A stretch of 35,387 nt of DNA from an uncultured Nitrosospira sp. (lineage in GTDB: Bacteria; Nitrospirota; Nitrospiria; Nitrospirales; Nitrospiraceae), in contig CAADGK010000070.1 in the NCBI GenBank assembly GCA_900696515.1, forward strand, positions 1 to 35,387, in the 5' to 3' direction. Positions within the stretch are counted from its first letter, which is position 1, and every line of letters begins with the position of its first letter. Under the pieces are notes generated by a model, which had not been told where the DNA came from, made no database searches, and saw nothing but the letters and a program-made list of their open reading frames with translations. Shown one piece after another: positions 14,406-34,804 of this stretch. A program made the position numbers and the translations under genes.

Positions 14406-15800
14406 ATGTTTAGGCCTATTCCAAAAGCCACGCTGTTTCGACGCATTCCATACCGTCTCATTACCTCTGTCGTACTCATTCTCGCGTTGGTCGTGACCGT
14501 CATCCTCCTCATGAGCTTGGAGCGAGACAAGCTCCTCCTCCAAGGATTCACGCAAAATCAGGCGGTCCCCACGGAGTTGTTTCAGGCGCTCTGGCGATCT
14601 CGGCATGACCTGATCGGGATTACTCTTCTTGTGTTCTTAGTCAGCGCCATCGGAATGGCGGCGCTCATCACCTTTCTGCATTACGACAATACGAGACGGA
14701 CTCTTGAAGAAGTCAAAGGTCTCGCGAGAAATATTCTTGAGAGTATCCCGACGGGCGTACTCACCATTAATCGCGACGGCCAAGTCACAGCCGTCAACCC
14801 CTCTGCCGTGGCGACATTGAAACGGTCGGCGGAAGAATTGCTCGGTCACTCCTATGAACAAATGTTTCTCCAAGGAGATACGATTCGTCTTGTACTCGAT
14901 GGAGCACTGCATAACAACCATCATGTGGATCATCATGATATGCCGTATCGCGCCGGTGACGAGACTCGTACGATACGCCTTGCAACTGCTGACCTGACAG
15001 GAGATGAGGGGAGACCGGTCGGCATCATTATGCTACTGAAAGATGTCACGGCGCTGCTAGCCTTGGAACGGCGGGTACTCGTAGCGGAAAAACTCTCCGC
15101 CCTCCATACCTTGTCCGCCGGCGTCGCCCATGAATTACGAAATCCGCTGAGCGCAATGGATTTGAATCTGCATCTTCTCGATGAAACATTGAAGGAACGA
15201 GGTGAGCTGGAACAGGACGTGGCGCACTATCTTCAGGTCGTGAATGCCGAATGTCGACGCCTCTCCGTGATTTTGGATAACTTCATGAGGTTCGCGCGTC
15301 CCACCTCGGTGGGTCTCCATGAAATGGACTTGGGAAGAGTCATCGCACATCTCATGGCACTCATGCAGTTTGAGGCACAGGAACGAAAGATCAAACTGGA
15401 GGATCGGATTGATGAAGAATTACCCCCGGTGTTTGGGGATGAGACACAGATTAGCCAGGTCCTCGTCAATGTCCTGGTGAATGCGTTTCAGGCCATGCCC
15501 GATGGCGGGCGGTGTTCGATCATCACACAGGTACAGCGAAATGCCGATGTGTGTTGGGTAGAGGTCGTTGTGTCCGACACGGGGATCGGAATCAAGCAAG
15601 AAGACTTGTTACATCTATTTGAGCCGTTCCATACCACGAAGACTAGCGGAACAGGCCTCGGTCTGGCTATTGCCTACCGCATTATGCAGGACCACGGGGG
15701 AACCATTCGTGTCTCCAGTGTACTTGGAAGTGGGACGACCGTGGTTGTGCAGCTTCCCGTGGCTGCCGACTCCCTTCAAAAGCTTGGGGTAGGGGCATGA
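14406..15800 (+). CDS. Membrane PAS-containing sensor histidine kinase (NtrB/AtoS/ZraS-like)
   Basis: This is a 464-residue protein. Two membrane segments (about 18-37 and 70-91) flank a very short periplasmic loop of roughly 30 residues. A PAS domain lies at about 107-220 (ILESIPTGVLTINRDGQVTA). The HisKA phospho-acceptor is H242 (GVAHELRNPLSAM), and the ATPase part has the N box (VNVLVNAFQAMP), G1 (DTGIGI) and G2 (GTGLGLAIAYRIM). The small external loop suggests the signal is read by the PAS domain or within the membrane. It overlaps the activator gene by 4 nt. No Shine-Dalgarno is obvious before the ATG. Confidence 0.93.
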   Translation: MFRPIPKATLFRRIPYRLITSVVLILALVVTVILLMSLERDKLLLQGFTQNQAVPTELFQALWRSRHDLIGITLLVFLVSAIGMAALITFLHYDNTRRTLEEVKGLARNILESIPTGVLTINRDGQVTAVNPSAVATLKRSAEELLGHSYEQMFLQGDTIRLVLDGALHNNHHVDHHDMPYRAGDETRTIRLATADLTGDEGRPVGIIMLLKDVTALLALERRVLVAEKLSALHTLSAGVAHELRNPLSAMDLNLHLLDETLKERGELEQDVAHYLQVVNAECRRLSVILDNFMRFARPTSVGLHEMDLGRVIAHLMALMQFEAQERKIKLEDRIDEELPPVFGDETQISQVLVNVLVNAFQAMPDGGRCSIITQVQRNADVCWVEVVVSDTGIGIKQEDLLHLFEPFHTTKTSGTGLGLAIAYRIMQDHGGTIRVSSVLGSGTTVVVQLPVAADSLQKLGVGA

Positions 15801-17155
15801 CGAATGCCGCACAAATCCTCATTGTTGACGACGAGCTGAACATTCGCAACGCGCTGGTGACTCTCCTTGCAAGGAAAGGCTATCGAGCCCTAAGCGTGGC
15901 GACGGCGGATGAAGCGTTGGATGTGTTTGAAACAACTGCAGTGGATTTAATAATTACTGACTTGCGGATGCCGGGAATCGGGGGGATGGAATTTCTGCGG
16001 AGGCTGCGCACACAATGGCCCAGCACAGAAGTGGTCGTCATGACGGCCTATGGATCCATCGAAACTGCAGTGGAAGCGATGCGGGCTGGAGCCTACGATT
16101 ATCTCACCAAGCCCATCGATCGCGAGCGGTTCCTCATCGTGATGGAGAAGGCGCTCGAGCGACACCGTCTTGCCAGCGAAAACCAGCAGCTCCGGGATCG
16201 ACTTGAAACGAGAACACGGTTCGAACGAATGGTCGGTGATAGCGAACCGATGCAACAGGTGTATCATCTTGTGGAGATGGTAGCGGGAAGCGACGTGACC
16301 GTATTGCTCACGGGTGAAAGTGGAACCGGGAAGGAGCTCGTCGCACGTGCCATCCACGATAAAAGCCATCGGGCCGACGGACCGTTTATTACCCTCAACT
16401 GCGGCGCATTGCCTGAAGCTCTGTTTGAAAGTGAGTTGTTCGGCTATGAAAAAGGCGCCTTCACCGGCGCGTTGTCCACCAAAGCCGGTCGGTTTGAATT
16501 GGCGCACGGCGGAACGCTGTTATTGGACGAAATCGGTGAGCTCTCCTTGAAATCCCAAGTCGACTTTCTTCGTGTTTTAGAGACCAAGGAATTCCGTCGT
16601 CTGGGTGGAACAAAGGTTGTGACTGTGGATGCTCGCATCATTGCCGCCACCAACCGAAACCTGGCGGAGGCCGTCAAGCAAGGGACTTTCCGCGAGGATC
16701 TTTTTTATCGACTGAATGTGGTCCCGATTCACTTGCCGCCGCTGCGCGAACGGGGAGAAGACATTCCCCTCCTCGTTGAGACCTTCCTGCCTGAATTTTG
16801 CACGCAGCATCAACGAGCGCTGAAGCACATCTCTCGAGAAGCGATGCGCCTGTTACGGCTATATGCCTGGCCGGGAAATATTCGACAGCTCCGTAACCTG
16901 CTCGAACGGCTGGTCGTCACCGTGCGGGACCCCACGATTCTCTCGGAGCATTTGCCGGAGGAGATTCAGGTCAGTCGGGAAGACCTCAGGACCATAGTCG
17001 TCAGTCTCGGGAAATCCTTGAAGGAAGTTGAAAAGGAAGTCATCCGCCGCACCCTCATGGAAATGACTAACCACCGTGAGAAAGCTGCCAGCCTACTCGG
17101 TATCAGCCTGCGGTCTCTCCAGTATAAGATTAAAGAATATGGGATTCGTGAGTAA
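15797..17155 (+). CDS. Sigma-54-dependent response regulator (NtrC family)
   Basis: This is a 452-residue protein with three domains. The receiver (1-120) has phospho-acceptor D55 (IITDLRMPG). The AAA+ domain has Walker A GESGTGKE (from about 173) and an intact GAFTGA loop (220-225) that contacts sigma-54, plus LLLDEIGEL as Walker B. The C-terminus is a Fis-type helix-turn-helix (REKAASLLGISLRSLQYKI). It is the cognate partner of the kinase, with overlapping ATGA start and stop. It is the best candidate to bind the GTGCAA dyads at 7173-7187 and 13874-13888 and to activate the two sigma-54 promoters. Confidence 0.97.
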   Translation: MTNAAQILIVDDELNIRNALVTLLARKGYRALSVATADEALDVFETTAVDLIITDLRMPGIGGMEFLRRLRTQWPSTEVVVMTAYGSIETAVEAMRAGAYDYLTKPIDRERFLIVMEKALERHRLASENQQLRDRLETRTRFERMVGDSEPMQQVYHLVEMVAGSDVTVLLTGESGTGKELVARAIHDKSHRADGPFITLNCGALPEALFESELFGYEKGAFTGALSTKAGRFELAHGGTLLLDEIGELSLKSQVDFLRVLETKEFRRLGGTKVVTVDARIIAATNRNLAEAVKQGTFREDLFYRLNVVPIHLPPLRERGEDIPLLVETFLPEFCTQHQRALKHISREAMRLLRLYAWPGNIRQLRNLLERLVVTVRDPTILSEHLPEEIQVSREDLRTIVVSLGKSLKEVEKEVIRRTLMEMTNHREKAASLLGISLRSLQYKIKEYGIRE

Positions 17156-18915: not shown

Positions 18916-18925
18916 AGCAGTGCGC

Positions 18926-19177: not shown

Positions 19178-19468
19178 ACAAATTGAAAACTTCATCCTCA
19201 GCGTGGCCACAATCGAGCTCTCAGGGCTCCATGCAACAATCCCATGCTGATCTTGGATCAGGCAATTGTTGCTCAGATCAACCGTGCAGGCCGGAGGTCA
19301 TCGACAGTGGACAGACGAACACGAGGTATTGCGAGCAGATCGCCCTCGCACTAGTCATCTCAGTAGGACACCCATGGCTGTAAAGTGCACAGCATCGCTT
19401 AAGTATGTGAAGAAGAGCTCGGTGCGTGGCAAAAGAAAGCAGAATGAACCGTGGAGGGCATGTTGAAC

Positions 19469-19747: not shown

Positions 19748-19880
19748 AGCACAAGCGAGCTTGGGGCAAAGCGCTACAACAGACTTCCTAATATCGGCAG
19801 AAGAGTTGAGCGACAGTTGCGAATGGATGCCAACCATCACCACTACATTCGTGTTTACTAAAATACTCAGGAGGCTGATC

Positions 19881-19988
19881 GTGGAAAACAATGAAACGCG
19901 GGCATGGCAGGCTTGGAAAATGACGTGCGGGACAGTGCTGGTCATCGCGCTGGTGTTGACCGTCATGCATCTCGTGGTGGGGGGATGA
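19881..19988 (+). CDS. 35-residue single-pass membrane peptide
   Basis: A GTG start at 19881 follows AGGAGG with a 6-nt gap, an ideal ribosome-binding site. The peptide has a polar N-terminus (ENNETRAWQAWKMTC), then one hydrophobic segment (GTVLVIALVLTVMHLVVGG) and stops at TGA. A much longer in-frame open frame begins at 19761 but has no such site and no plausible protein sequence. It lies about 150 nt upstream of the Ehr-like operon and may be an accessory membrane peptide of it (inference). Confidence 0.65.
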   Translation: MENNETRAWQAWKMTCGTVLVIALVLTVMHLVVGG

Positions 19989-20135
19989 GATACGAGATTG
20001 TGGCCCTGTGACCTCTGGAATGGGCAAGCAGAAGGAGGGATCATCTTTGTGTCTTATCAAATTGTTGCGGGTGCCGGTATCCTCCAAATAAACCCTGCGG
20101 GAATGTGACTCGGACCCGAGGCCTCAAGTGATCGT

Positions 20136-22163
20136 ATGCTGAATCTGTTGTGGCTTCTTCTCGGCGGGTATGGGGTCGGAATACTGCTTCCGCTCTGTCT
20201 GCCAGGACGGCCAGGGTTGCAACAGCTCACAAGCAATGTTGCCGCCATCGTGGGAACCAGCACAGGTGTCATCCTTGGGCTTCTGGGTCTCACGTCGTCG
20301 GAGCCCGTCACGGGATCGCTCGCCTCCACCATTCCTCTGCTCACCTTCACCGTTCGGCTTGATCCACTCGCGGCATTCTTCGTCCTCACGATCTCCCTCG
20401 TGGGTCTTGCTGCCTCGATTTATGCCATTGGATACCTGCAGCATTTCGAAGAGCGCGCATCGACCGACACGCTCGGAGCGCTCTTTAACGCATTTCTCCT
20501 CTCTATGACGTTCGTTGTCCTGGCGGATAACGCGTTCTTCTTTCTGCTCGCTTGGGAACTCATGTCGCTACTATCCTATTTCCTCGTGGTGACTGAGCAC
20601 GAGAAGGCGGAAGTGCGGTACGCGGGATTGTTCTACTTGATCATGACGCACATCGGAACTGCGTTTATTGTCGTGGCGTTCTTGATCTTCTTCCAGGGTA
20701 CCTGGTCGTTCTCCTTTGAAGCGTTTCGGCATCCAGCACAACCCCTACCGGAAGGCATGAAAACTCTCGTATTTCTCATGGCCTTACTCGGGTTCGGCAC
20801 GAAGGCCGGCATCATACCACTCCATGTGTGGTTGCCCTATGCGCATCCCGTGGCCCCGTCGCATGTCTCAGCCGTGATGTCTGGCGTCATGATCAAAACT
20901 GCGATCTATGGCTTGATCCGCGTGTATTTCGACTTCTTCGGTGGGCAGTTTCCCTGGTGGTGGGGGTTCACCGTACTACTCCTGGGGACCACATCCGCGT
21001 TACTTGGGGTGATGTACGCCTTGATGGAACATGATCTCAAAAGACTCCTTGCGTTTCACAGCGTGGAGAACATTGGAATTATCCTGATGGGCCTTGGGGC
21101 TGGCATGATCTTTCAGGCCTACGGATTGAGAGAACTGGCCGCGCTTGGACTGCTGGCTGGACTCTACCATACGATCAATCACGCCCTATTCAAGGCCCTC
21201 CTATTCTTAGGGGCCGGCTCACTGCTCTATGCGACACATACGCGCAATATGGAAGAGTACGGCGGCTTGCTGCGACGCATGCCGTGGACGGGGATCTTTT
21301 TTTTGATCGGAGCCGTGTCAATTTCTGCGTTGCCCCCTACCAATGGATTCGTGAGTGAGTGGCTGGTGTTCCAAACACTTTTTCTCAGTTTTCAGATTCC
21401 AACCGTATTTCTCAAACTGATGCTACCGATCGCAGCAGCGATCTTGGCTCTCACCGGCGTGCTGGCCTTGACCTGCTTCGCAAAAGCCTTCGGGATTTCG
21501 TTTCTCGCACAGCCACGAAGTACGCATGCCCGTCAGGCTGAGGAGGTTCCGGTTTCGATGCGCACGGGCATGGGTATCTTGGCCGCCCTTTGTGTAGCGC
21601 TGGGCGTTGCCCCAATGGTGGTCGTGCCGTTATTGGATCAAATTGTCGCTCCCCTAGCAGGAATCTCGATCGCGAGCAAGGTCTTGGCAATCGATGGATG
21701 GGCGCTAGCCCCGGTAAATGTCGAATTCTCAAGCCTGTCCACCCCGGTCCTTGCGTTGCTGCTTGTTGCGTCGGCGATATTGGGATTGGGACTCGCCGTC
21801 GTGCTCGGTGGTCGTCTCACAACACGCCGTTCAAAATCTTGGGGCTGTGGGATCACTCTCACACCCCGGATGGAATACACCGCAACTGGTTTCGTCCAGC
21901 CGATCAAACGAGTGTTCAGTACGATTTATCAGCCGACGGTGAAACTCGAAACGGAGTTTCTCGCCGAATCACGATACTTCTCCAAACGGCGACACTTTGA
22001 ATTTCACATTGAACCGATCTTTGAGAAGTATCTCTATGATCCCTTGGTGGCATTCTTTGGGACGCTGGCCGACCGCCTGAAAGTCATTCAGGCCGGTAGC
22101 CTACACCTCTACCTAACCTATATGTTCGTCACACTGATCGCCTTACTGCTGCTCGCGGTGTAA
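20136..22163 (+). CDS. hyfB: HyfB/NuoL-like antiporter-type membrane subunit (Ehr complex)
   Basis: This is a 675-residue polytopic protein of the complex I NuoL/M/N and Mrp antiporter superfamily, closest in layout to HyfB of hydrogenase-4. The conserved transmembrane glutamate (E141 in LLAWELMSLL) and the proton-pathway lysine (K223 in GFGTKAGIIPLHVWLP) are present, with LPYAHPVAPSHVSAVMSGVM and LAFHSVENIGIILMGLGAG. The C-terminal 100 residues extend as in HyfB. It should translocate protons or sodium when coupled to the hydrophilic subunits. It is the first gene of the operon; the next start is 3 nt after its stop. Confidence 0.93.
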   Translation: MLNLLWLLLGGYGVGILLPLCLPGRPGLQQLTSNVAAIVGTSTGVILGLLGLTSSEPVTGSLASTIPLLTFTVRLDPLAAFFVLTISLVGLAASIYAIGYLQHFEERASTDTLGALFNAFLLSMTFVVLADNAFFFLLAWELMSLLSYFLVVTEHEKAEVRYAGLFYLIMTHIGTAFIVVAFLIFFQGTWSFSFEAFRHPAQPLPEGMKTLVFLMALLGFGTKAGIIPLHVWLPYAHPVAPSHVSAVMSGVMIKTAIYGLIRVYFDFFGGQFPWWWGFTVLLLGTTSALLGVMYALMEHDLKRLLAFHSVENIGIILMGLGAGMIFQAYGLRELAALGLLAGLYHTINHALFKALLFLGAGSLLYATHTRNMEEYGGLLRRMPWTGIFFLIGAVSISALPPTNGFVSEWLVFQTLFLSFQIPTVFLKLMLPIAAAILALTGVLALTCFAKAFGISFLAQPRSTHARQAEEVPVSMRTGMGILAALCVALGVAPMVVVPLLDQIVAPLAGISIASKVLAIDGWALAPVNVEFSSLSTPVLALLLVASAILGLGLAVVLGGRLTTRRSKSWGCGITLTPRMEYTATGFVQPIKRVFSTIYQPTVKLETEFLAESRYFSKRRHFEFHIEPIFEKYLYDPLVAFFGTLADRLKVIQAGSLHLYLTYMFVTLIALLLLAV

Positions 22164-22166
22164 CCG

Positions 22167-23117
22167 ATGCTCCATACGATCGCTCTCATCGTGACCCAAA
22201 CCGCCGTCTTACTCGCGTTTTCCCCGTTTCTTATCGGTCTGATTCGAAAAGTCAAAGCCCGGTTGCAATTGCGACGAGGTGCGAGCGTCCTTCAGCCATA
22301 CGCTGACTTGGCCAAGCTGTTCCACAAGCAGCCGGTGATCTCAACCACCACCTCCTGGATCTTTACGGCGACACCATACATCGTATTTGCCTCTATTTTG
22401 ACTGCGGGTCTACTGGTCCCCACATTCATCTCGCAGATACCCATGAATTTTGCTGGAAACATCATTGCGCTGGTCTACCTCTTGGCCCTGGGCACGTTCT
22501 TCTTGATTCTTGCGGGACTCGATGCTGGATCAGCCTTTGGGGGGATGGGAAGCAGTCGAGAGGCGATAGTCGCGTCACTGACCGAGCCAGCCATGATGCT
22601 CGCGATCTTTGCAATTGCCCTCACCAATGGGTCAACGAATGTGAGCACCATTGTTCATAAGACGGCGTTACTGGAAGGCATTATTACGGACCCGTCACCG
22701 CATTTGATGGCACTGGCCGCCCTCTTTATCGTGGCGCTCGCGGAGACAGGGCGGGTACCAGTCGACAATCCGGCCACGCATCTGGAACTGACCATGATTC
22801 ATGAAGCCATGGTCCTTGAATACTCAGGGCGCTATCTTGCCTTACTCGAATGGGCGGCCGGTCTGAAACTCGCGGTGTTCCTTTCTTTGATCGTCAATGT
22901 CTTCGCGCCGTGGGGCATCGCGACAACAGTTACCCCAACTGCGATTGGAATCGGGCTCCTAGTATACGTAGTGAAGACAGCAGCTCTCGCGGTGTTGATC
23001 GGAGTCATCGAATGTATGTTCGCCAAATTGCGGTTGTTCCGGGTCACGGATCTGTTGGGCGTGGCGTTCATCCTCGCTCTACTCGGGTTGCTGTTCTTTT
23101 ATATTCTTCGGAGTTGA
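22167..23117 (+). CDS. hyfC: HyfC/NuoH-like membrane anchor subunit (Ehr complex)
   Basis: This is a 316-residue membrane protein with about eight hydrophobic segments, of the NuoH/HycD/HyfC family. The cytoplasmic loop AETGRVPVDNPATHLELTMI followed by HEAMVLEYSGRY (from residue 191) carries the glutamates that in complex I line the quinone cavity and start the proton path. LFHKQPVISTTTSWIF near the N-terminus is also family-typical. It anchors the iron-sulfur small subunit (26954-27463) to the membrane arm. The next gene starts 4 nt after its stop. Confidence 0.93.
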   Translation: MLHTIALIVTQTAVLLAFSPFLIGLIRKVKARLQLRRGASVLQPYADLAKLFHKQPVISTTTSWIFTATPYIVFASILTAGLLVPTFISQIPMNFAGNIIALVYLLALGTFFLILAGLDAGSAFGGMGSSREAIVASLTEPAMMLAIFAIALTNGSTNVSTIVHKTALLEGIITDPSPHLMALAALFIVALAETGRVPVDNPATHLELTMIHEAMVLEYSGRYLALLEWAAGLKLAVFLSLIVNVFAPWGIATTVTPTAIGIGLLVYVVKTAALAVLIGVIECMFAKLRLFRVTDLLGVAFILALLGLLFFYILRS

Positions 23118-23121
23118 TCGG

Positions 23122-23787
23122 ATGCAGGGGCTTTCGTCCGTTGGATCACAACTGGTCGACTTGTGCTCAGCCTTGCTCTTATTGACCTGTTTCGCGATCG
23201 TGGCACAACGGCGGCTCTCGGCCTGCGTTGACCTGTTCGCACTGCAGTCATCCTTTCTCGTCGTCACTGCAGCGCTGGTCGCTTATCTGACCGGGAACCC
23301 GCACATTTATATCGCGGCGGGGCTGACTGGTATCATCAAAGTACTCATCATTCCTCGAGTCCTCAAGAAAGTCATTGATCATCTCAACGTCAAACGGGAA
23401 CTGGTGATGCACGTAAACGTGCCAACCGGACTATTGATTTGCGGCGGTCTAGTCATGTTGGCCTTTTTCATCGCGCAGCCAATCCTTCCTCTAGGATCCC
23501 TCCTTACGCGAGATTCTTTAGCAATCGCTCTTGCGATCGTACTTATTGGATTGTTTACCATGATCGCAAGGCAAAAGGCGGTCTCCCAACTGGTGGGCTT
23601 TCTCGTCCTGGAAAACGGACTGTTTCTGGGCGCGACCGCCGCGACCTATGGCATGCCGTTGGTCGTCGAACTCGGTGTGTTCTTTGATGTGCTCATCGCC
23701 ACATTGATTGCAGGAATCTATACGAATCGCTTGCAGGATGCATTCGACAGTGTGGATACAGACCGACTCACCGTTTTGAAAGAATAG
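23122..23787 (+). CDS. hyfE: HyfE-like membrane subunit (Ehr complex)
   Basis: This is a 221-residue membrane protein with about six to seven transmembrane segments. Its C-terminal half (IARQKAVSQLVGFLVLENGL, then FLGATAATYGMPLVVELGVF) matches the NuoK-like core of HyfE, including the membrane glutamates (LENG and VELG). In hydrogenase-4 this subunit sits between HyfC and the antiporter-like subunits. It lies 4 nt after HyfC and 11 nt before HyfF, consistent with one transcript. Confidence 0.9.
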   Translation: MQGLSSVGSQLVDLCSALLLLTCFAIVAQRRLSACVDLFALQSSFLVVTAALVAYLTGNPHIYIAAGLTGIIKVLIIPRVLKKVIDHLNVKRELVMHVNVPTGLLICGGLVMLAFFIAQPILPLGSLLTRDSLAIALAIVLIGLFTMIARQKAVSQLVGFLVLENGLFLGATAATYGMPLVVELGVFFDVLIATLIAGIYTNRLQDAFDSVDTDRLTVLKE

Positions 23788-23798
23788 CCGAGGTTGTC

Positions 23799-25337
23799 GT
23801 GACAATCGCAGTCGTGGTTTTATTAATTGCCCCGCTGCTCGCAGGAGGGCTGAGTCTGGTCGTCCACCGCTCTGCATGGCTCCACGGGATTAATCTCACG
23901 AGTATAGGCGCTCTTGTCACCGCAGAAACCGTGCTCACCCACATGGTGTTGAGCGATGGTCCCGTCCTGGCTTTGGGCGAGTTGGTCTATCTCGACGCGT
24001 TGTCGACCTTTATTTTGTTCATTATTGGTGTGGTGGGACTGGCGTGTTCCTTCTATATGCGTTCGTACATGGACGAGCAAGTCGCCCGCGGCGTCATTGC
24101 GCCGTCACAACTGAACCAGTTCTTTTTTCTTTTCCACATGTTTCTGCTTGCTATGGTGATCGCGACCATTGCCAACAGTGTTGGGATCCAGTGGGTGGCG
24201 ATTGAAGCGACGACGCTCGCAACCACCTTCCTCATTGCTTTTTGGAAGCGACGAGAGTCGCTGGAGGCTGGGTGGAAGTACCTTATTCTGTGTTCGGTCG
24301 GCATTTCACTTGCCTTGTTTGGCGTCGTGCTGCTGTATTACTCGTCACTCCATGTGCTGAGCGATGCCAGTCAAGGATTGAACGTGACGGCGCTCCTGCC
24401 TGTGGCTGACCGGCTCAATCCCCAAGTTCTTAAGTTGGCGTTCATCTTCATCCTGGTGGGATATGGCACCAAGGTGGGCCTCGTCCCGATGCATAGTTGG
24501 CTGCCGGATGCCTACACCGAGGCTCCGGCCCCGGTAGTCGCCATGCTCGCTGGTGTCCTCGAAGTGGTGGCGGCCTATGCCATCCTGAGGGTGAGAGTTA
24601 TTGTTGATCACGCCGTTCCGTTTGCCTTCGCTGGTGAGTTGTTGACATTGCTTGGCTTTGCCTCATTGGTGACGGCAGCGTTCTTCATCCTTATCCAGCA
24701 CAACTATAAGCGGCTGTTTGCCTATTCCAGCATCGAACACATGGGGGTCGCCATGATCGGGTTTGGGATTGGGGGACCGCTGGGAACCTTCGGCGGCCTG
24801 TTTCATCTCATGAATCATGCATTGGCGAAGTCGATGGCCTTTTTTGCAGCGGGCAACATTCACCGTCGCTTTCACACCGTGGAAATCGAGCATGTCCAGG
24901 GACTGGCGATGGCGCAGCCTTGGACAGCTACGGCCCTGCTGATCTCGGGGTTAGCCTTGTCGGCGCTTCCCCCATTTGCGGCATTTCCCAGCGAAGTTCA
25001 GATCCTCACGGCCTTGGCCTCGCAAGGGGTTCCAGGGATGGAGTTTGCTGGGACCTCTGGCATGGTCACCGTGGCCTTATCGGACCAATTCAGTCGGGTT
25101 GCACTCGCTTCAGTGTTTTTGATCGCTGCGGTTCTTTCGTTCGGCGGACTGCTGTATCGCATAACCGGAATGGTATGGGGAACACCGTCTGAGGGCATCG
25201 TCCGGGGAGAACGCTGGACACTAGGTCATCTGCCGATCATTCTGCTTACTATAGCACTTATTGGATTCAGCATGTTTCTGCCCCAGCCTATAAAGAAACT
25301 CTTGGAACAAGCAACCAGCATTCTGGTGATTCAATAG
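23799..25337 (+). CDS. hyfF: HyfF/NuoN-like antiporter-type membrane subunit (Ehr complex)
   Basis: This is a 512-residue polytopic antiporter-like protein starting at GTG. The conserved glutamate is E136 (QWVAIEATTL) and the lysine is K225 (GYGTKVGLVPMHSWLPDAYT). EAPAPVVAMLAGVLEVVAAY and FAYSSIEHMGVAMIGFG are family blocks of HyfF. With HyfB this gives the complex two potential ion-pumping subunits. It has an 11-nt gap after HyfE and a 6-nt gap before HyfG. Confidence 0.93.
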   Translation: MTIAVVVLLIAPLLAGGLSLVVHRSAWLHGINLTSIGALVTAETVLTHMVLSDGPVLALGELVYLDALSTFILFIIGVVGLACSFYMRSYMDEQVARGVIAPSQLNQFFFLFHMFLLAMVIATIANSVGIQWVAIEATTLATTFLIAFWKRRESLEAGWKYLILCSVGISLALFGVVLLYYSSLHVLSDASQGLNVTALLPVADRLNPQVLKLAFIFILVGYGTKVGLVPMHSWLPDAYTEAPAPVVAMLAGVLEVVAAYAILRVRVIVDHAVPFAFAGELLTLLGFASLVTAAFFILIQHNYKRLFAYSSIEHMGVAMIGFGIGGPLGTFGGLFHLMNHALAKSMAFFAAGNIHRRFHTVEIEHVQGLAMAQPWTATALLISGLALSALPPFAAFPSEVQILTALASQGVPGMEFAGTSGMVTVALSDQFSRVALASVFLIAAVLSFGGLLYRITGMVWGTPSEGIVRGERWTLGHLPIILLTIALIGFSMFLPQPIKKLLEQATSILVIQ

Positions 25338-25343
25338 GAGAGG

Positions 25344-26942
25344 ATGAGCATGTCAGAAACCATGTTCTGTGACGATCTCCTCACTGCGGCGTTCCCAGGC
25401 ATTCTGAAGCATGACCCGATTTGTGCAAAGTCTTCACATTTCACGGTTCCCAAGGACCGTCTGCCGGCCATCAGCCACTATATTCATACGCAACCAAGCT
25501 TGCGCGGTCGGCTGACGCTCTTATGGGCCTGTGATGATCGCCCTGTTCGTGACAGCTACGGGCTGTACTACTTGTTTACCTTGGAGGCCTCTCACCACTG
25601 GGTGGTGCTGTCCACTGAATTAGCTGGCCACGATCGGCTGTTTCCCTCTATTACCCCGCACATTCATGCTGCTCAGTGGTATGAGCGCGAGATCCGCGAT
25701 ATGTTTGGGTTGATTCCTCAAGGCCATCCGGATCTTCGTCGTTTGGTTCGACACGAGCATTGGCCGAAGGGAACCCATCCGTTACAGAAGGACTTTTCGT
25801 GGAACCACGTCTTGGAACGGCAACAAGGTGAATACCGTTTTCACCATATTGATGGCGAGGGGGTCTTTGAAGTTCCGGTCGGTCCGATTCATGCCGGCAT
25901 CATCGAGGCGGGACATTTTCGGTTTTCCGTGGCTGGTGAGCCGATCATGCAACTGGAACTGCGGCACTTTTGGAAACATCGTGGCGTTGAAAAATTGTTT
26001 GAGCAACTCACGCTGACCGACGCGGTGCTGCTGGCAGAACGTGTGTCTGGGGACACCACGGTGGGGCACAGTCTCGCCTATTGCCAGGCGGTAGAAGCGC
26101 TCCTGCACCTTGAAGTACCTCGGCGAGCCAATTACCTCCGTTCCCTCTTTTTAGAACTCGAACGACTGTACAATCACCTTGGCGACATTGGTGCCATGTG
26201 CAATGACACGGCCTATGCCCTCGCTCATGCTCATTGTGGTCGGATGAAGGAGCGGATCATGCAACTCAATGACCGGCTGGTTGGTTCACGCTACCTGCGA
26301 GGCGTGATGCAGGTCGGGGGAGTCAGTTGGGATATCGATCGCAGCCAATTCACCACTATCGTTGAAGAGCTCAACGGCATTCAGAAGGATTTCTCCGAAG
26401 TGGGCGCCATCATCTTTGCCAATGCCTCACTCACAGATCGGCTGGAGACCACCGGGGTTTTGACGGAACGGATTGCCTTGGATCACGGCGTGACGGGAGT
26501 GGTTGGACGGGCATCGGGGATAGATCAGGACGTCCGACGGGATCGCCCCTTTGCGGCGTATGATGAACTACCCGTGAACGTTCCGCTCTATCGCTACGGT
26601 GACGTGCGGGCAAGATTGCGTGTCCGGGGCGATGAAATCCATGAGTCCATTCGGCTCATTCGCGAAGTACGCGATAAAATTCCGAACGGTCCAATCGCCA
26701 GTCAACCCTGTTCCCTACCAAAGCCTGGCGGATGGACACTGGCAGCGGTTGAAGGGTGGCGGGGCGAGATTTTGTATATGGTGATGGCAGGGGAAGACGG
26801 CCGGATTCATCGATGCAAGGTCCGAGACCCATCCTTTGTGAATTGGCCTGCGATTCAATGGGCGGTGCTGGGCAACATTATCCCGGACTTTCCGCTCATC
26901 AACAAGAGCTTCAACCTCTCATACGCTGGGAACGATCTATAG
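25344..26942 (+). CDS. hyfG: HyfG-like NuoC-NuoD fusion, lacking Ni-ligating cysteines (Ehr complex)
   Basis: This is a 532-residue fusion of a NuoC-like N-terminal domain (about 1-150; ERE-IRDMFGLIPQGHPDLRR is diagnostic) and a [NiFe]-hydrogenase/NuoD-like large subunit. Where hydrogenases carry the first CxxC (ERICGxC), this protein has AERVSGDTTVGH (S235, T238). Where they carry DPCxxC it has RDPSFVNW (S497, N500). All four nickel ligands are therefore replaced, and the protein cannot form a [NiFe] site. The rest of the fold is intact (FANASLTDRLETTGVLT, PDFPLINKSFNLSYAGNDL). This defines the cluster as Ehr type rather than hydrogenase. No hydrogenase-maturation genes are in the window. 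Confidence 0.93.
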   Translation: MSMSETMFCDDLLTAAFPGILKHDPICAKSSHFTVPKDRLPAISHYIHTQPSLRGRLTLLWACDDRPVRDSYGLYYLFTLEASHHWVVLSTELAGHDRLFPSITPHIHAAQWYEREIRDMFGLIPQGHPDLRRLVRHEHWPKGTHPLQKDFSWNHVLERQQGEYRFHHIDGEGVFEVPVGPIHAGIIEAGHFRFSVAGEPIMQLELRHFWKHRGVEKLFEQLTLTDAVLLAERVSGDTTVGHSLAYCQAVEALLHLEVPRRANYLRSLFLELERLYNHLGDIGAMCNDTAYALAHAHCGRMKERIMQLNDRLVGSRYLRGVMQVGGVSWDIDRSQFTTIVEELNGIQKDFSEVGAIIFANASLTDRLETTGVLTERIALDHGVTGVVGRASGIDQDVRRDRPFAAYDELPVNVPLYRYGDVRARLRVRGDEIHESIRLIREVRDKIPNGPIASQPCSLPKPGGWTLAAVEGWRGEILYMVMAGEDGRIHRCKVRDPSFVNWPAIQWAVLGNIIPDFPLINKSFNLSYAGNDL

Positions 26943-26953
26943 GGAGGCCGAAC

Positions 26954-27463
26954 ATGTTCCGCATCATCAAAAAAAGCCTGAGGATCGGAGTCGTGACGGG
27001 TCGTTATCAGAAAGCGGAAAAACCTGAACTGCCGGTTACGCCTGAGGCTCAGGACAAAGCTAGCCCCTTCAAACGATCGCTCGCGATCCGTGAAGTGGAT
27101 ACCGGATCCTGCAACGCCTGTGAAATGGAAATGAGCGCACTCTTGAACCCTGTGTACGATGCTGACCGATTCGGCATACACATCGCTGCATCGCCACGCC
27201 ATGCGGATGCCTTGGTGGTAACGGGGCCGGTCACCGTCAACATGGAGCGAGCGTTGAAAGACGTGTACAGGCAAACACCTGATCCGAAGATCGTCATTGC
27301 GCTTGGTGACTGCGCAATCAACTGTGGCATATTCAAAGGCAGTTATGCCGTGACAGGACCAGTAGAACGGCACATCCCTGTTGATGTCCGAATCCCAGGT
27401 TGCCCGCCGCGTCCGGCAGAAATTCTTGCGGCTCTGTCAGAGTTGCGTAAGCCAAAGGGATGA
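26954..27463 (+). CDS. hyfI: HyfI/NuoB-like iron-sulfur subunit (Ehr complex)
   Basis: This is a 169-residue soluble subunit. Cysteines C53, C56 (TGSCNACEMEM), C120 (ALGDCAINCG) and C150 (PGCPPRP) match the four ligands of the proximal [4Fe-4S] cluster (N2 in complex I). It therefore keeps an electron-transfer centre although its partner HyfG has lost the nickel site. The start at 26954 follows AGGGAGG; a longer upstream frame overlapping HyfG was rejected. It is the last gene of the hyfBCEFGI-like operon, with an 11-nt gap after HyfG. No HyfA/HyfH ferredoxin-like subunit is present. Confidence 0.94.
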   Translation: MFRIIKKSLRIGVVTGRYQKAEKPELPVTPEAQDKASPFKRSLAIREVDTGSCNACEMEMSALLNPVYDADRFGIHIAASPRHADALVVTGPVTVNMERALKDVYRQTPDPKIVIALGDCAINCGIFKGSYAVTGPVERHIPVDVRIPGCPPRPAEILAALSELRKPKG

Positions 27464-27694: not shown

Positions 27695-29008
27695 ATGTCT
27701 AGCAGCAAACCCCGCGTGTTGATTCTTGGTGGCGGCTTCGGCGGGATGTATGCTGCGTTGGAATTCGAACGTGCACTGGCGCATGGCGCCAAGCTGGATG
27801 TCATCCTCGTCAATCACGACAACTTTTTCCTCTTCACTCCAATGCTACACGAAGTCGCCGCGAGCGACCTCGATATTACCAATATCGTCAGCCCGATCCG
27901 CAAGCTGCTGCGGAGGGTGACATTCTTTCATGGCGAGATCGAAACCATCGATCTCGCACATCAACGGGTGGGAGTCTCGCACGGGCATGAGAACCATTGC
28001 CATGCACTGCCGTACGACCACCTCATATTGGCTCTCGGGTCCACCACGAACTTCTTCGATATCCCTGGCTTAGCTGATCGGGCCTTCACCATGAAATCAT
28101 TGAGCGACGCAATTGTGCTGCGTAACCATCTCATCGCAAATCTTGAGGAGGCCGACTTTGAGTGTGGCACCTCGCAGCGCACGGGTTTACTGAATTTCGT
28201 CGTGGCGGGCGGCGGCTTCGCCGGGGTTGAAACCATTGCAGCCATGAATGACTTTTTGCGGGAGGCAGTAGAGTTTTTCCCGCATCTTCGGGAAGACATG
28301 CTGCGAATCATCCTGGTCAGTTCTGGTCGGGATATCTTGCCTGAACTGGGGGAAAAGCTCGGCACCTATGCGCAGCACAAACTCGCTGAACAGAAGGTGG
28401 AAATTCGCTCAAACTGCAAGGTCACCGCTGTGAAAGATCAGGACGTTACACTGAGTGATGGGACGACGATTACCACGAATACGCTAGTGTGGACCGCCGG
28501 CATCAGCCCGCATGCCCTGTTGAACACTCTCCCATTTGAAAAGATTAAAGGCCGCGTCCTGGTCAACGAGTACCTGGAGGTTCCCGGATGGCCGGGCGTC
28601 TGGGCTTTGGGCGACTGTGCGATGGTGCCGGATCGCAAGACCGGTGAGTTTCACCCTCCGACCGCGCAACACGCGCTGCGTGAAGGGAAGATTGCGGCTC
28701 AGAATATCCTCGCCACCGTGCGCCGGGGGTGGAAGAAGCCGTTTGTCTACTCTACGATCGGACTCCTGGCTCCGATTGGGAAGCGCACCGGTGTCGCGAA
28801 CATTCTCGGCGTGAACTTTTCAGGCTTCATTGCCTGGTGGCTGTGGCGCACGATCTACCTGATGAAACTGCCCCGATTCGAGAAGAAAATTCTGGTGGCT
28901 TTGGACTGGACGCTGGATGTGCTCTTCTCTAAGGATCTGGTCCACTTCCGCACGACGCGTTCGCCAACGTCACCACCCGGCGAAGTAAATTTGAAGAAAC
29001 CGGCCTAA
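27695..29008 (+). CDS. Type II NADH dehydrogenase-like flavoprotein
   Basis: This is a 437-residue protein of the NDH-2 family, which oxidises NADH and reduces quinone without pumping ions. The N-terminal FAD motif is LILGGGFGGMYAALEFE and the NAD-binding motif is VVAGGGFAGVETIAAM, followed by WTAGISPHALLNTL and WALGDCAMVPD. The C-terminal stretch (FIAWWLWRTIYLMKLP, then FEKKILVALDWTLD) is the amphipathic membrane-binding end typical of NDH-2. It lies 231 nt after the Ehr operon on the same strand and could be its redox partner or an alternative NADH entry point. Substrate preference (NADH, NADPH or sulfide as in SQR) is not proven, but no SQR-type cysteines were seen. Confidence 0.88.
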   Translation: MSSSKPRVLILGGGFGGMYAALEFERALAHGAKLDVILVNHDNFFLFTPMLHEVAASDLDITNIVSPIRKLLRRVTFFHGEIETIDLAHQRVGVSHGHENHCHALPYDHLILALGSTTNFFDIPGLADRAFTMKSLSDAIVLRNHLIANLEEADFECGTSQRTGLLNFVVAGGGFAGVETIAAMNDFLREAVEFFPHLREDMLRIILVSSGRDILPELGEKLGTYAQHKLAEQKVEIRSNCKVTAVKDQDVTLSDGTTITTNTLVWTAGISPHALLNTLPFEKIKGRVLVNEYLEVPGWPGVWALGDCAMVPDRKTGEFHPPTAQHALREGKIAAQNILATVRRGWKKPFVYSTIGLLAPIGKRTGVANILGVNFSGFIAWWLWRTIYLMKLPRFEKKILVALDWTLDVLFSKDLVHFRTTRSPTSPPGEVNLKKPA

Positions 29009-29501: not shown

Positions 29502-30514
29502 CAGCCTCCTCGTGGCTCATGCGGTTGGACTCAGATTGTCGTCTCCTCACGAGTCTAATTGAACCGAGCTGATCTGCCATGCCCCGTAAGGAGGGTAGGG
29601 GAGCACCATGGGAAGGGGAGGACAACGAGCCGTCTCAGTGATCGCCAGCCATGCTGAGGATAACAAGATCGAACCGCTTTCCATGGATTCCGCCGATTCA
29701 GGGCCGAGAACATGACGGCGAGCGGCATGAACGGCGAGTTCGTCGTGCAGGGCACCTTGATACCCGCACGTCAGCATCAGAGAGAGGAAGAAATGCCAGG
29801 CGCGGTTGGCGCAACGCAGAAGGTGATGAGGGAGGTTCACATGACTGGGGAGCGATGGGGGTCGTGACGAGCCCAAGCAGCTCGCGTTACGTGGTCCTCC
29901 TCATGGCACGAGCCCTCCTGACGCCCTATTCGGATCGCTTAGGCAATCTTTGGTCTGTTCGCCAGCGTACTGGCAATCAGATCGCTGGATAATTAGCGCA
30001 GCTTGATCTCCAACTCTTCGAAGGACTCCCCGTGCACCTGGTGGTCAGGATGGTCCTGGAGATAGCCGCACCACTTGCCATGATCTTAGGAACACAGAAA
30101 TTTCGTCATGTGGCGGAGTATACCGGTAACCCACCGATGCACACAGCATATTGTCAATTTACACCGAAGAGCCCCCTGATCGAACGTCATGAGCGATGGC
30201 CCCTATCGCCTAGAGAATCACCCACGCACCGATCATGATTGTAAATATGGCCAAAGCGCTGCAGAAGTAATCTATCCAGTTCAGTGTCCTCCACTGCCTA
30301 CACTGTTTTAGTAAGTCAGGCCTTTCTGTAGAGGCTCATCCCTACATGCCAATACATGGCAGATTAATTATCGCTCATTCAGAACAAGCATCTTGACAGG
30401 CGCTCTGCATCCGCGTACTAGTTCACACAACAAACAACTAAGGTCAATATATTAGTATAACTACATACAGTATTGCGCATGCCGACATCGGACATGTGTC
30501 GTGCAAGGACTCGC
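29502..30514. other. About 1 kb without a recognisable gene at the edge of the conjugation cluster
   Basis: No ORF here has a convincing start, motif or composition. The part from about 30240 to 30480 is visibly richer in A and T than the flanks and holds the candidate trb promoter and a short dyad (TGCCA, 5 nt, TGGCA at 30347-30361). I found no tRNA gene and no obvious attachment-site repeat that would define an element end. Confidence 0.5.
30393..30421 (+). promoter_or_regulatory. Candidate sigma-70 promoter of the trb operon
   Basis: TTGACA (30393-30398) is a perfect -35; 17 nt later TACTAG (30416-30421) is a weak -10 (3 of 6). It is in the A/T-rich segment 94 nt before the trbB start. 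An alternative -10 (TATAAC around 30456) lacks a good -35. Confidence 0.4.
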
Positions 30515-31489
30515 ATGGATGATGGACCCTCGACGAAAGAACGCGCTCGCCGGATGATTGAGCGGGATATGGGGCCATTGTTACTCGAAACCCTCCATGA
30601 TGCACGCACCGTGGAAGTCATGCTGAACGCGGATGGGCGGCTCTGGTGTGAACGGCTCGGGCAGGGGATGGCGTGTATTGGGACGTTTCCCGCCGCCCGT
30701 GCGGAAGCCATCATCAAAACCGTGGCAGGGTTTCATCGCAAGGAAATTACGCGGCAATCTCCGTATCTCGACGGGGAATTTCCTCTCGACGGCTCCCGGT
30801 TTGCCGCACAGATCCCGCCGATTGTTCCCGCTCCGACGTTCGCCATTCGCAAACGGGCGCTCGCGGTCTTTCGATTTGAGCAGTATGTGGAGCAGGGAAT
30901 CATGACGGCGCGGCAACGAGACGTGCTGCTCACCGCCATCATCACCCGGCGCAATATTCTGGTCGTGGGCGGGACGGGGTCGGGCAAGACGACGCTCGTG
31001 AATGCCCTGATCGATACCATGATGGACACCTTTCCCCATCTGCGCGTGTTTATCTTCGAAGACACCGCCGAAATCCAATGCCGTGCCGATAACTGCGTGC
31101 AATACCACACCACCGTGGATGTCACGATGGCGAAGCTCTTGAAGATCTCCATGCGCATGCGGCCCGACACGATCTTAGTCGGAGAAGTCCGAGGGCCGGA
31201 AGCCTTGGATCTGCTGATGGCGTGGAACAGCGGACATGAAGGGGGCATTGCGACCTTGCATGCGAACCATGCCAGAGCCGGACTTTCGAAGCTGGCGCTC
31301 TATATCAGCATGAACCAAGACTATCCCAAACCGATCGAACCCCTGATCGCCGAAGCCGTGCAGGTCGTGGTGCACATCACACGCTGTGCAGACGGTCGTC
31401 GCGTCGAGGACATTCTCGAAGTCCAGGGCTATGAGCAGGGACAGTACATCACCAGGTCACTGATTGAACCGAAGGAGCACGATCAATGA
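30515..31489 (+). CDS. trbB: Conjugal transfer ATPase TrbB (VirB11 family)
   Basis: This is a hexameric secretion ATPase of about 324 residues. Walker A is [10 protein letters not shown] (about residue 152), the Asp box is [13 protein letters not shown], Walker B is [17 protein letters not shown] and the His box is [14 protein letters not shown]. It energises pilus assembly and substrate transfer at the inner membrane. The ATG at 30515 was chosen over upstream TTG/ATG options because AAGGA lies 5 nt before it. Its stop overlaps the start of trbC. It begins the trbBCDEF order found in IncP plasmids such as RP4. Confidence 0.95.
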
Positions 31490-31887
31490 GCACTGTATCG
31501 CACTGGAAACAATACCTGTGGTGCGTCGGCGTCCTGCTGATGCTGTGTGTCATCACCATGCCGCAGGAGGCCCACGCGGCGGGGACGGCTGGGGGCGGTC
31601 TCCCCTACGAATCCGCGTTGACCCGGTTGCGGGCGTCGATCACCGGCCCCGTCGCCTTTACCTTGTCATTAATCGGGATTGTGGGCGCTGCCGGGGTATT
31701 GATCTTCGGCGGCGAACTGACGGGTTTTTTGCGCATGATGGTCTTTTTGGTGTTACTGATCGCCATCCTTGTGGGCGCCCAAAACGTGCTGACGACGCTC
31801 TTCGCCGCAGGAGCCGAGATCGCATGGAGCGGGAAGGGGAAGGCGCTGGCGGCATCGGCTCATCCTGAACTGATGAGGCGGAGCTGA
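31486..31887 (+). CDS. trbC: Conjugal pilin TrbC (VirB2 family)
   Basis: This is a 133-residue protein. The signal peptide is about residues 1-31 (ending EAHA), followed by two hydrophobic segments ([37 protein letters not shown]) joined by a short loop, the layout of the TrbC/VirB2 pilin. In RP4, TrbC is processed and cyclised; whether that occurs here is not visible. It overlaps trbB by 4 nt and is 2 nt from trbD. Confidence 0.9.
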
Positions 31888-31889
31888 CC

Positions 31890-32201
31890 ATGGCGCTCCG
31901 CAAGATCCCAATTCGTCGCGTCATGCATCGAGACAATCTATTTCTGGGCGGGGACCGCGAACTGGTGCTGTTCTGTGGCGCGGTCGCGTTTGCGCTGGTC
32001 TTCACCGCGCAAGAGCTGCGAGCCGGGATCATCGGCGTGAGTCTGTGGTTTGTGATGCTCTACATCCTGCGACTCATGGCCAAAGCCGATCCGAAGTTGC
32101 GGTACGTCTATCTGCGTCAGTTGATCTACAAACCGTACTATCCCGCCCGCAGTACCCCCTGGCGGGTGAACAGCACGAGGCAGGGGAATCAGTACACATG
32201 A
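31890..32201 (+). CDS. trbD: Conjugal transfer protein TrbD (VirB3 family)
   Basis: This is a 103-residue inner-membrane protein. The N-terminus IPIRRVMHRDNLFLGGDREL is the classic start of TrbD, followed by one or two membrane segments (VLFCGAVAFALVFTAQEL, GIIGVSLWFVMLYILRLM) and a basic tail. GGCGGAG precedes the ATG. TrbD/VirB3 works with the TrbE ATPase. Its stop overlaps the trbE start (ATGA). Confidence 0.92.
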   Translation: MALRKIPIRRVMHRDNLFLGGDRELVLFCGAVAFALVFTAQELRAGIIGVSLWFVMLYILRLMAKADPKLRYVYLRQLIYKPYYPARSTPWRVNSTRQGNQYT

Positions 32202-34804
32202 TGGTGACGCTGACCGTCCTGATTGCCGGGTTAGGTCTCATCCTCCTGTTCATGCTGATCCAACGTGTCCGGGAAGCAGACGCACACGTGACGTTGAAGA
32301 AGCATCGCTCCCAGGATGCGGGCCTGTCGGATCTCTTGATCTACGCGGCCATGGTGGAGGACGGCGTGATCGTCGGGAAAAACGGCTCGCTCATGGCGGC
32401 CTGGATCTACAGCGGAGACGATCAGGCCAGCAGTACGGAACCTCAGCGCGAAGCGGTGTCGTTTCGGATCAATCAAGCCTTGAGTCCCTTGGGCAACGGA
32501 TGGATGGTGCATGTGGATGCGGTGCGGCGGCGGGCAGCGGGGTATGCCGCGCCCGGCCTCTCCCATTTTCCCGATCCACTGACGGCCGCGCTGGACGAAG
32601 AACGGCGGCGGCTCTTTGAAGGATTAGGAGCCATGTACGACGGCTATTTTGTCGTGACCCTCACGTATGTGCCGCCGTTGGTGGCGCAACGCAAGTTCGT
32701 GGAGCTGATGTTCGACGATGACCAGGCGGAAGTCAGCGCCCAGGACCGCACGAACGGATTGGTGGAGCAATTCACCCGGGACTGTTCGTCGTTTGAATCG
32801 CGGTTGTCGTCGGTCTTTCGCCTCCAACGCCTCCGCGGACACTCCCTCATCCTCGAAGATGGCTCGACCGTCACCCATGATGAATTCCTGCGGTGGGTGC
32901 AACGCTGCGTGACCGGTCTGAATCAGCCGGTCCTCTTGCCCTCCCATCCGATGTATCTCGATGCCGTGATCGGCGGACAAGAATTGTGGACAGGCATCAT
33001 TCCAAAAATCGGCCGCCAGTACATGCAGGTCGTGGCGATCGAAGGCTTTCCGTTGGAGAGCACGCCAGGGATTCTGACGGCGCTCGGGGAGTTGCCCATC
33101 GAGTACCGCTGGTCGTCCCGCTTTATTTTCATGGATCAGCACGAAGCCGTCCGAGAGCTGACGCGCTATCGGCGGAAATGGAAGCAGAAAGTCAGAGGAT
33201 TTCTCGATCAAATCACGAACTCGCAGACCGGTCCACTAGATCAGGATGCGATGGCGATGGTCGCCGATGCGGAGGCCGCCATCGGGGAAGTGAATAGTGG
33301 ATTGATCGGGATGGGGTACTACACGAGTGTCGTGGTCCTCATGGATGAAGACCGGGGTAAAGTAGAACGGTCGGCACGGTACATCGAAAAGGTGCTGCAT
33401 CAATTAGGATTTGCCGCACGGATCGAAACGCTCAATACGATGGACGCCTTCTTGGGCAGCTTGCCGGGCCATGGTGTCGAAAATGTCCGGCGTCCGCCGT
33501 TGAACACCATGAACCTGGCGGATCTCCTGCCGACCAGTACGATCTGGACCGGCGGCGCCACCGCGCCCTGTCCCCTGTATCCGCCGAACGCTCCGCCCCT
33601 GATGCAGTGCGTGACGCATGGGGCCACCCCGTTCCGTCTCAATCTCCATGTCCGCGATGTCGGCCATACCTTGATGCTCGGACCGACCGGCTCAGGCAAA
33701 TCGACGCATCTGGGGATGCTTGCCGCACAACTGCGCCGGTACGAGGGCATGTCCGTCTTTGTCTTCGATAAGGGTCTGTCGATGTATCCCTTGGCGGCGG
33801 CGATTCGAGCCCACACGAAGGGGCAGAGCGGATTGCACTTCACCGTGGCGGGAGATTCCCACGAGTTGGCCTTTTGCCCCCTGCAATTTTTGGAGACCAA
33901 AGGGGATCGGGCCTGGGCGTTAGAGTGGATCGAGACCATGCTCGCCCTGAACGGCGTGAAGACCACACCGATCCAGCGGAACGCCATTGCGGAAACGGTC
34001 ATGGCGCTGCACGCCAATGCGTTGAGTCATGGCCACACCAGCGGATTGAACCAGCCGCCGGCCTCGCTCTCCGATTTCGTGAACATGGTGCAAGACGAAG
34101 AGATTCGCGAAGCCCTGAAGCAATACACCGTGAGCGGGGCCTTGGGTCATCTCCTCGATGCCGAACGGGACGGGCTCGCCCTCGCGGATTTCACCGTGTT
34201 TGAAATTGAGGAGTTGATGGGACTCGGGGACAAATATGCGCTTCCCACCATCTTGTATCTCTTTCACCGGATCGAACGGAGCTTGCGGGGCCAGCCCAGC
34301 GCCATCATCGTGGATGAAGCCTGGTTGATGCTGGGGCATCCGGTGATCCGCGAAAAGATCCGGGAATGGCTGAAAGTCCTGCGCAAGGCGAACTGCCTCG
34401 TGGTGCTGGCGACGCAGAGCCTCACGGACGCAGCCAATTCAGGCATTTTGGATGTGATCGTGGAATCCACGGCGACCAAGATCTTTTTGCCCAACGTCTT
34501 CGCCCGCGATGAGGACACCTCGGCGCTGTATCGCCGGATGGGGTTGAACTCGCGGCAAATTGAGATCTTGGCCACGGCCATTCCGAAGCGCCAGTATTAC
34601 TACAGTTCAGAATATGGCCATCGGCTCTACGACCTCGCATTAGGACCCTTGGCCCTCGCCTTCGTCGGCGCATCGGATAAAGAGTCCATCGCGGAGATCC
34701 GCGCGCTGATAGAAAAGCACGGGGAGGCCTGGACGGACGAATGGCTCGCGAGCCGGGGACTCACGCTGCGTGATTACGGAGCCTATGAAGAGGTAACCGC
34801 ATGA
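32198..34804 (+). CDS. trbE: Conjugal transfer ATPase TrbE (VirB4 family)
   Basis: This is an 868-residue protein. An N-terminal membrane segment (VLIAGLGLILLFMLIQ) is followed by the CagE/TrbE/VirB domain and the P-loop ATPase. Walker A is GPTGSGKSTHLG (from about residue 495) and Walker B is AIIVDEAWLML (about 702-708), followed by NCLVVLATQSLTDAANSGIL. It is the main ATPase of the type IV secretion machine. The start at 32198 gives the overlap with trbD and the membrane segment at the N-terminus; a longer upstream frame was rejected. Confidence 0.97.
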   Translation: MMVTLTVLIAGLGLILLFMLIQRVREADAHVTLKKHRSQDAGLSDLLIYAAMVEDGVIVGKNGSLMAAWIYSGDDQASSTEPQREAVSFRINQALSPLGNGWMVHVDAVRRRAAGYAAPGLSHFPDPLTAALDEERRRLFEGLGAMYDGYFVVTLTYVPPLVAQRKFVELMFDDDQAEVSAQDRTNGLVEQFTRDCSSFESRLSSVFRLQRLRGHSLILEDGSTVTHDEFLRWVQRCVTGLNQPVLLPSHPMYLDAVIGGQELWTGIIPKIGRQYMQVVAIEGFPLESTPGILTALGELPIEYRWSSRFIFMDQHEAVRELTRYRRKWKQKVRGFLDQITNSQTGPLDQDAMAMVADAEAAIGEVNSGLIGMGYYTSVVVLMDEDRGKVERSARYIEKVLHQLGFAARIETLNTMDAFLGSLPGHGVENVRRPPLNTMNLADLLPTSTIWTGGATAPCPLYPPNAPPLMQCVTHGATPFRLNLHVRDVGHTLMLGPTGSGKSTHLGMLAAQLRRYEGMSVFVFDKGLSMYPLAAAIRAHTKGQSGLHFTVAGDSHELAFCPLQFLETKGDRAWALEWIETMLALNGVKTTPIQRNAIAETVMALHANALSHGHTSGLNQPPASLSDFVNMVQDEEIREALKQYTVSGALGHLLDAERDGLALADFTVFEIEELMGLGDKYALPTILYLFHRIERSLRGQPSAIIVDEAWLMLGHPVIREKIREWLKVLRKANCLVVLATQSLTDAANSGILDVIVESTATKIFLPNVFARDEDTSALYRRMGLNSRQIEILATAIPKRQYYYSSEYGHRLYDLALGPLALAFVGASDKESIAEIRALIEKHGEAWTDEWLASRGLTLRDYGAYEEVTA

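Follow-up and report, generated by a model that had tools for sequence, protein, structure and literature searches.

A hydrogenase-4-like Ehr complex that has lost its nickel ligands in a comammox Nitrospira, and its nickel-retaining relatives

Complex I is a relative of the group-4 [NiFe] hydrogenases that lacks their nickel ligands, and the Mbs and Mbx complexes of Thermococcales are derived from the same group and have a substrate other than H2. The Ehr complexes, whose name (Ech-hydrogenase-related) reportedly goes back to Coppi in 2005 and Marreiros in 2013, are widespread and are placed between the hydrogenases and complex I.

In Nitrospira, the genes hyfBCEFGI were described in 2017 (PMC5596200), both CxxC motifs were reported to be missing from hyfG in 2020 (PMC7305129), and the complex was named Ehr in comammox in 2023 (PMC10284858). 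A later account, in which roughly half of the Nitrospirales genomes had the complex, leaves its function unassigned (PMC12342949, 2025). The Ehr of Nitrospira without nickel ligands is, on these accounts, already known, and the gene cluster that we analysed belongs to the expected biology of the genus. It lies in a 35,387-nt stretch of DNA (contig CAADGK010000070.1), here called the window. To what the Ehr sections of the published Nitrospirales accounts contain, we add corrected ligand positions, a comparison with a sister group that bears on the number of clusters, and a small open reading frame.

The hyf operon and its former nickel site

The genes hyfB-C-E-F-G-I form an intact operon (20136-27463, + strand) in which all six frames are intact, and Pfam and NCBIfam placed their products with the subunits of group-4 hydrogenases and complex I. 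HyfB (20136..22163, +) is an antiporter-like subunit of the NuoL/HycC type with E141, K223, K254 and K353 present; it matched NCBIfam hydrogenase 4 subunit B with 757 bits, above the cut-off, and its top PDB match was HycC. HyfC (22167..23117, +) is a NuoH/HycD-type membrane subunit that keeps the conserved acidic residues (Pfam NADHdh, 1.3e-46; top PDB match HycD), so antiporter-like and NuoH-like subunits are encoded in the same operon. The small membrane subunit HyfE (23122..23787, +) and the second antiporter-like subunit HyfF (23799..25337, +; E136, K225 and K344 present) matched the NCBIfam hydrogenase 4 membrane subunit (5.3e-29) and hydrogenase 4 subunit F (1.5e-122), both below the family cut-offs. 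The gene hyfG (25344..26942, +) encodes the large subunit EhrL, a fused 30-kDa/49-kDa protein of 532 aa with 0/4 of the Ni-binding cysteines, and hyfI (26954..27463, +), with GGGAGG just 5' of its ATG start, encodes the small subunit EhrS, 169 aa long, with one [4Fe-4S] site and no ferredoxin domain. No HyfA- or HyfH-like gene was found beside the operon. The sequence-only reading of this DNA had described a complete membrane arm of HyfB, HyfC, HyfE and HyfF with an electron-transfer arm and without HyfA/HyfH, and this was borne out: four full membrane-arm genes and one electron-transfer subunit are present.

When HyfG was aligned with HycE and HyfG of E. coli, the first CxxC motif (E. coli RVCGICGFAHS) corresponded to RVSGDTTVGHS (former L1 motif; 26040..26072, +), which has S235 and T238 in the place of the cysteines, as claimed earlier. 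The second CxxC lies at the C-terminus, where SFNLSYAGNDL (former L2 motif; 26907..26939, +) aligns with GSLDPCYSCTDR of HycE and SFELCYSCLDR of Bacillota enzymes, and the residues in the ligand positions are S526 and G529. S497 and N500 (RDPSFVNWP), which had been assigned to this motif, come about 29 residues too early and are the wrong residues. The claim that there is no nickel site stands despite this misnumbering, since all four cysteines are replaced; of the earlier observation as a whole, the L1 motif, the HyfI cysteines and the operon were confirmed, and only the L2 residue numbers had to be given up. To judge conservation of the ligand sites, 80 loci were compared, all of them in named public genomes. 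The Nitrospirales homologues covering the sites had S at position 235 (one T), T at position 238 (one S), and S526 and G529 with no exceptions. The replacements exceed chance, as is seen from their recurrence in Nitrospirales and from purifying selection.

HyfG contains eight cysteines in total. The sole one near either motif, C247, was rejected as an alternative nickel ligand because the nickel-retaining Bacillota enzymes have C247 beside their four ligands. In an AlphaFold model of HyfG the closest fold was that of HycE (7z0s_E, TM 0.81), which ranked above complex I; the pocket geometry of the model was unusable owing to low confidence at residues 165-213 and 498-532, which include part of the pocket.

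In phylogenetic trees, all ligand-less large subunits formed a single group, with the Bacillota enzymes as its sister (support 97/94 and 97/95), and E. coli Hyf/Hyc, Ech and NuoD fell outside this joint group. The clade of the window is shared by N. moscoviensis (L094) and N. defluvii (L097), which places it with the known Nitrospirales Ehr. HyfG, a homologue of the group-4 [NiFe] large subunits and of the 49-kDa subunit of complex I, thus falls among ligand-less relatives and not within hydrogenases with alternative nickel ligands, in agreement with the Ehr type assigned to it earlier. We have practically no doubt that hyfB-C-E-F-G-I encodes an Ehr (energy-converting-hydrogenase-related) complex, which descends from a group-4 [NiFe] hydrogenase and has lost the nickel site, as has an entire clade of its relatives. 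The ligand-less clade was still found when the ligand regions were removed, with support down to 83/82, a drop that leaves a single loss of the nickel ligands likely from the tree, not proven. Other Nitrospirota have related ligand-less forms of the SGDT or SGTS type, at times as two operons in tandem, and distant Nitrospirota enzymes (L180 and L181, 35-36% identity) keep the four cysteines (CCCC). At the tandem loci L178 and L179 both Ehr operons are complete or almost so, one being of the SGTS/SGTD type and the other of the SGDT type.

The vacated site might bind menaquinone, in which case the complex would be a quinone-reactive pump working as a ferredoxin:quinone oxidoreductase or in the reverse direction. 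The architecture is the same as that of the complex I quinone module, and complex I is itself a relative of group-4 hydrogenases without the ligands. Such a role was also put forward for FDH-Ehr in a passage of PMC6349859. However, the two residues with which the 49-kDa subunit binds quinone, a His and a Tyr, are missing, their positions being taken by I187 and G236 in HyfG; the beta1-beta2 loop reads GPIHAGIIEPGHFR also in those Bacillota enzymes that have nickel ligands and so would need no quinone, and Ehr is present in only about half of the genus. This main rival to a different, non-quinone substrate is therefore possible but doubtful, and the quinone coupling proposed earlier is weakened as far as complex-I-type chemistry is concerned.

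Iron-sulfur site, membrane arm and selection

In HyfI, residues C53, C56, C120 and C150 align with the proximal-cluster cysteines of the Mbh and FHL small subunits and were kept in all aligned Nitrospirales rows but one gapped row; the ligands, previously said to be intact, are present and aligned. A fifth cysteine, C124 (27323-27325), is found four residues past ligand C120. It occurs in 67/67 aligned Nitrospirales HyfI sequences (plus one gapped row), and the other relatives compared have Gly or Ser there.

The small subunits of the Bacillota sister group carry two [4Fe-4S] motifs in a domain at their N-terminus. The start of the Nitrospirales HyfI, MFRIIKKSLRIGVVTGRY, matches MLRLFHKSLKTGTVTTDY of the Bacillota proteins, after which the ferredoxin domain is missing; as a consequence, one [4Fe-4S] cluster is predicted to be left in the Nitrospirales Ehr. 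Caballeronia and L187/L189 retain the domain, L185 and Mycobacterium branderi have it in a degenerate form, and elsewhere it is missing; this scattered presence implies repeated loss. The Ehr-like small subunit on the M. branderi plasmid (L147, 10309-11103) has in addition lost all four cluster cysteines, and the nickel ligands of its large subunit are lost as well.

The charged residues of the proton path are present in the membrane arm. TM5 Glu, TM7 Lys and TM12 Lys of both antiporter-like subunits (E141/K223/K353 in HyfB, E136/K225/K344 in HyfF) were invariant (61/61), and seven acidic residues of HyfC were kept in 53/53. In TM8, Nitrospirales HyfF has a Glu (E255) in 55 of the 61 sequences, at a position where Bacillota, other Ehr and E. 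coli have Leu.

The dN/dS values of the six window genes were mostly 0.04-0.17, which points to purifying selection on all six; very few substitutions lie behind the one outlier (0.53, hyfI compared with L035). It is hardly credible that such an operon is a decaying, non-functional remnant. Its known catalytic site is lost, its distribution is patchy, and relaxed selection was suggested for the ehr genes of Geobacter in the part of PMC13194489 concerned with them, but six intact frames under this constraint, invariant replacement residues and a wide spread in Nitrospirota all speak against decay. HyfG and HyfI are, moreover, as constrained as the membrane genes, which would be unexpected for a passive scaffold. 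This argues against a redox-silent ion transporter in which the antiporter-like arm alone matters, for pH or ion homeostasis, and the hydrogenase module is structural. The loss of the nickel site and the ferredoxin domain, the conserved membrane residues and the M. branderi protein without even cluster cysteines would fit such a transporter, but Nitrospirales as a whole have kept the four cluster cysteines, and we consider it improbable.

Our preferred reading, which we hold to be reasonably probable, is that the Nitrospirales Ehr is an ion pump driven by a redox reaction, in which one cluster, a soluble carrier of single electrons and a substrate other than H2 take part. A carrier of the ferredoxin or flavodoxin type is assumed to dock on HyfI. 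Electrons would then move between the carrier, the single [4Fe-4S] cluster of HyfI and a small non-H2 substrate, which might sit in the vacated HyfG pocket at the HyfI/HyfC interface, and the complex, like FHL and complex I, would use the redox step to power ion movement via HyfC, HyfF and HyfB. That ion translocation is coupled to a redox reaction seems to us about equally probable; the donor, acceptor, ion and direction are what we infer from the comparison, and the choice of any particular substrate would be unlikely to be right. In N. moscoviensis, H2 did not raise Ehr expression in the data given in PMC12342949.

Distribution, neighbouring genes and a small ORF before hyfB

At the threshold used, the Ehr complex was found in 26/59 genomes of the genus, and there was no match in 33/59 (16 of the 36 good ones). 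One further genome, G004, also carries hyfB-E and part of hyfF, the rest being cut off by the contig end, so that 26/59 is a lower bound. The complex is probably an optional, condition-specific module. That about half of the genus lacks it disfavours the supply of low-potential electrons as its general role, for which 2M complex I is a published candidate in the relevant part of PMC8407350, and the earlier suggestion of a general reverse-electron source is weakened. What stands of the earlier interpretation is the Ehr type, the membrane arm, the lack of a hydrogenase site and a substrate left unassigned; the quinone and the general low-potential role have lost ground.

Besides amoA and HypD, a further [NiFe] hydrogenase was found in the genome of the window. 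The host had been called nitrite-oxidiser-like; with amoA it is a complete ammonia oxidiser (comammox Nitrospira) and not a nitrite oxidiser only, and with HypD and the other enzyme it can mature a different hydrogenase. Ehr is independent of hydrogenase maturation, as 6/26 Ehr-positive genomes had no HypD match. In tests on the 59 genomes, which ignore relatedness and genome incompleteness, Ehr was not associated with HypD (p 0.17), AmoA (p 0.18) or canonical FDH (p 0.31; above the family cut-off in 6/26 Ehr-positive and 4/33 Ehr-negative genomes), and Ni-type CODH was found in 0/59. FDH, CODH, HypD and AMO were rejected as Ehr partners for want of association.

These counts also bear on the reading as a formate hydrogenlyase or CO-oxidising hydrogenase complex, as annotated in some genome papers (PMC5596200). 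The NCBIfam hydrogenase-4 matches agree with it, as do the FhlA-like regulators and the CODH neighbour described in a section of that paper, but HyfG has no nickel ligands, neither a formate dehydrogenase nor Fe-S linker subunits accompany it, and no conserved FDH or CODH gene was seen among the Ehr neighbours. We regard this annotation as very improbable and, barring H2 activity of the complex, an H2-forming formate hydrogenlyase as refuted.

Two conserved upstream neighbours are possible regulators, a PAS-domain histidine kinase (14406..15800, +; 16 loci) and an NtrC-type sigma-54 response regulator (15797..17155, +; 18 loci). A cluster for pyruvate dehydrogenase E1, E2 and E3 and a lipoyl ligase is also found upstream (7426-13650). 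The genes downstream (sensor kinase, lysine-aminomutase-like, dCTP-deaminase-like) look unrelated to Ehr, and no conserved gene for a cytoplasmic partner was seen among the neighbours. A type II NADH dehydrogenase-like gene (27695-29008) lies beside the operon, and such a gene was near Ehr in 8 loci. The conjugation genes trbB and trbE follow shortly downstream (30473-34804); L035 has them too whereas L036, a close relative, does not, and it is therefore probable that a conjugative element was inserted near the operon in the lineage of the window. Universal stress protein genes were seen near the Ehr-like operons of Paraburkholderia, Rhizobium and Mycobacterium (L141, L143 and L147), a hint at a role in stress or hypoxia.

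Between the regulator genes and hyfB we noticed an unannotated small ORF (19881..19988, +) with a GTG start and a good ribosome-binding site (CAGGAGG) upstream, which would encode 35 aa (VENNETRAWQAWKMTCGTVLVIALVLTVMHLVVGG) with one predicted membrane helix and is separated from hyfB by 147 nt. Its in-frame dN/dS was 0.33, as against pN/pS of 1.07-1.12 in the other two frames, and in the clade closest to the window it is conserved 5' of hyfB. Strong matches were obtained in 18/59 genus genomes; 17 of these are Ehr-positive and the eighteenth is G004, where hyfB comes directly after the ORF. In every case where the contig extends far enough, the ORF is followed by hyfB, and an extra copy was found at a contig end in G034 (C22). 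The predicted membrane peptide may be an unrecognised extra part of Ehr; since it is absent from the Ehr loci of N. moscoviensis and N. defluvii, it would be at most a lineage-specific accessory part. A conserved match to a sigma-54 promoter (TGG-N11-GC-like, about 222 nt before hyfB) was rejected because it sits within the small ORF, the conservation of whose coding sequence explains its own. Sigma-54-type matches across the window were no more numerous than by chance, and a promoter and terminator scan of 17100-20300 gave nothing better than shuffles. The whole combination, a functional single-cluster energy-converting oxidoreductase whose substrate is something other than H2 or quinone, assembled together with the 35-residue peptide, is put forward here as a tentative proposal.

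Comparison with known complexes

With complex I (NuoCD/NuoD), Ehr shares ancestry and the lack of nickel ligands, but it is without the quinone His and Tyr, NuoEFG, NuoI and NuoA. Mbs/Mbx of Thermococcales (6u8y) are more distant from the window in sequence and have another subunit set. Hydrogenase-4 (Hyf) and formate hydrogenlyase (Hyc, 7z0s) of E. coli have homologous subunits and the fold similarity given above, and differ in their nickel ligands, extra Fe-S subunits, a C-terminal extension past L2 and a position outside the clade of Ehr and the Bacillota enzymes. From the Nitrospirales Ehr, as far as it is described in the Ehr sections of PMC12342949, PMC10284858 and PMC7305129, the window differs in nothing essential: the genus and the six genes hyfBCEFGI are the same and both CxxC motifs are missing.

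The nearest relatives with a nickel site are the operons of Bacillota (L132-L134, L136, L138 and L139; Desulfosporosinus, Peptococcaceae). The order hyfBCEFGI is identical to that of the window where a contig holds all six genes, and the large subunit is 43-46% identical, has the same GPIHAGIIEPGHFR loop and likewise ends at the L2 motif; unlike the window, these operons encode the four Ni-binding cysteines and a small subunit with an N-terminal 2x[4Fe-4S] ferredoxin domain. Since this sister group has the same six genes and its nickel site is intact, the change can be tested by comparing the two directly, and finding the Ehr substrate would show how a hydrogenase becomes another ion pump and what use comammox Nitrospira makes of it.
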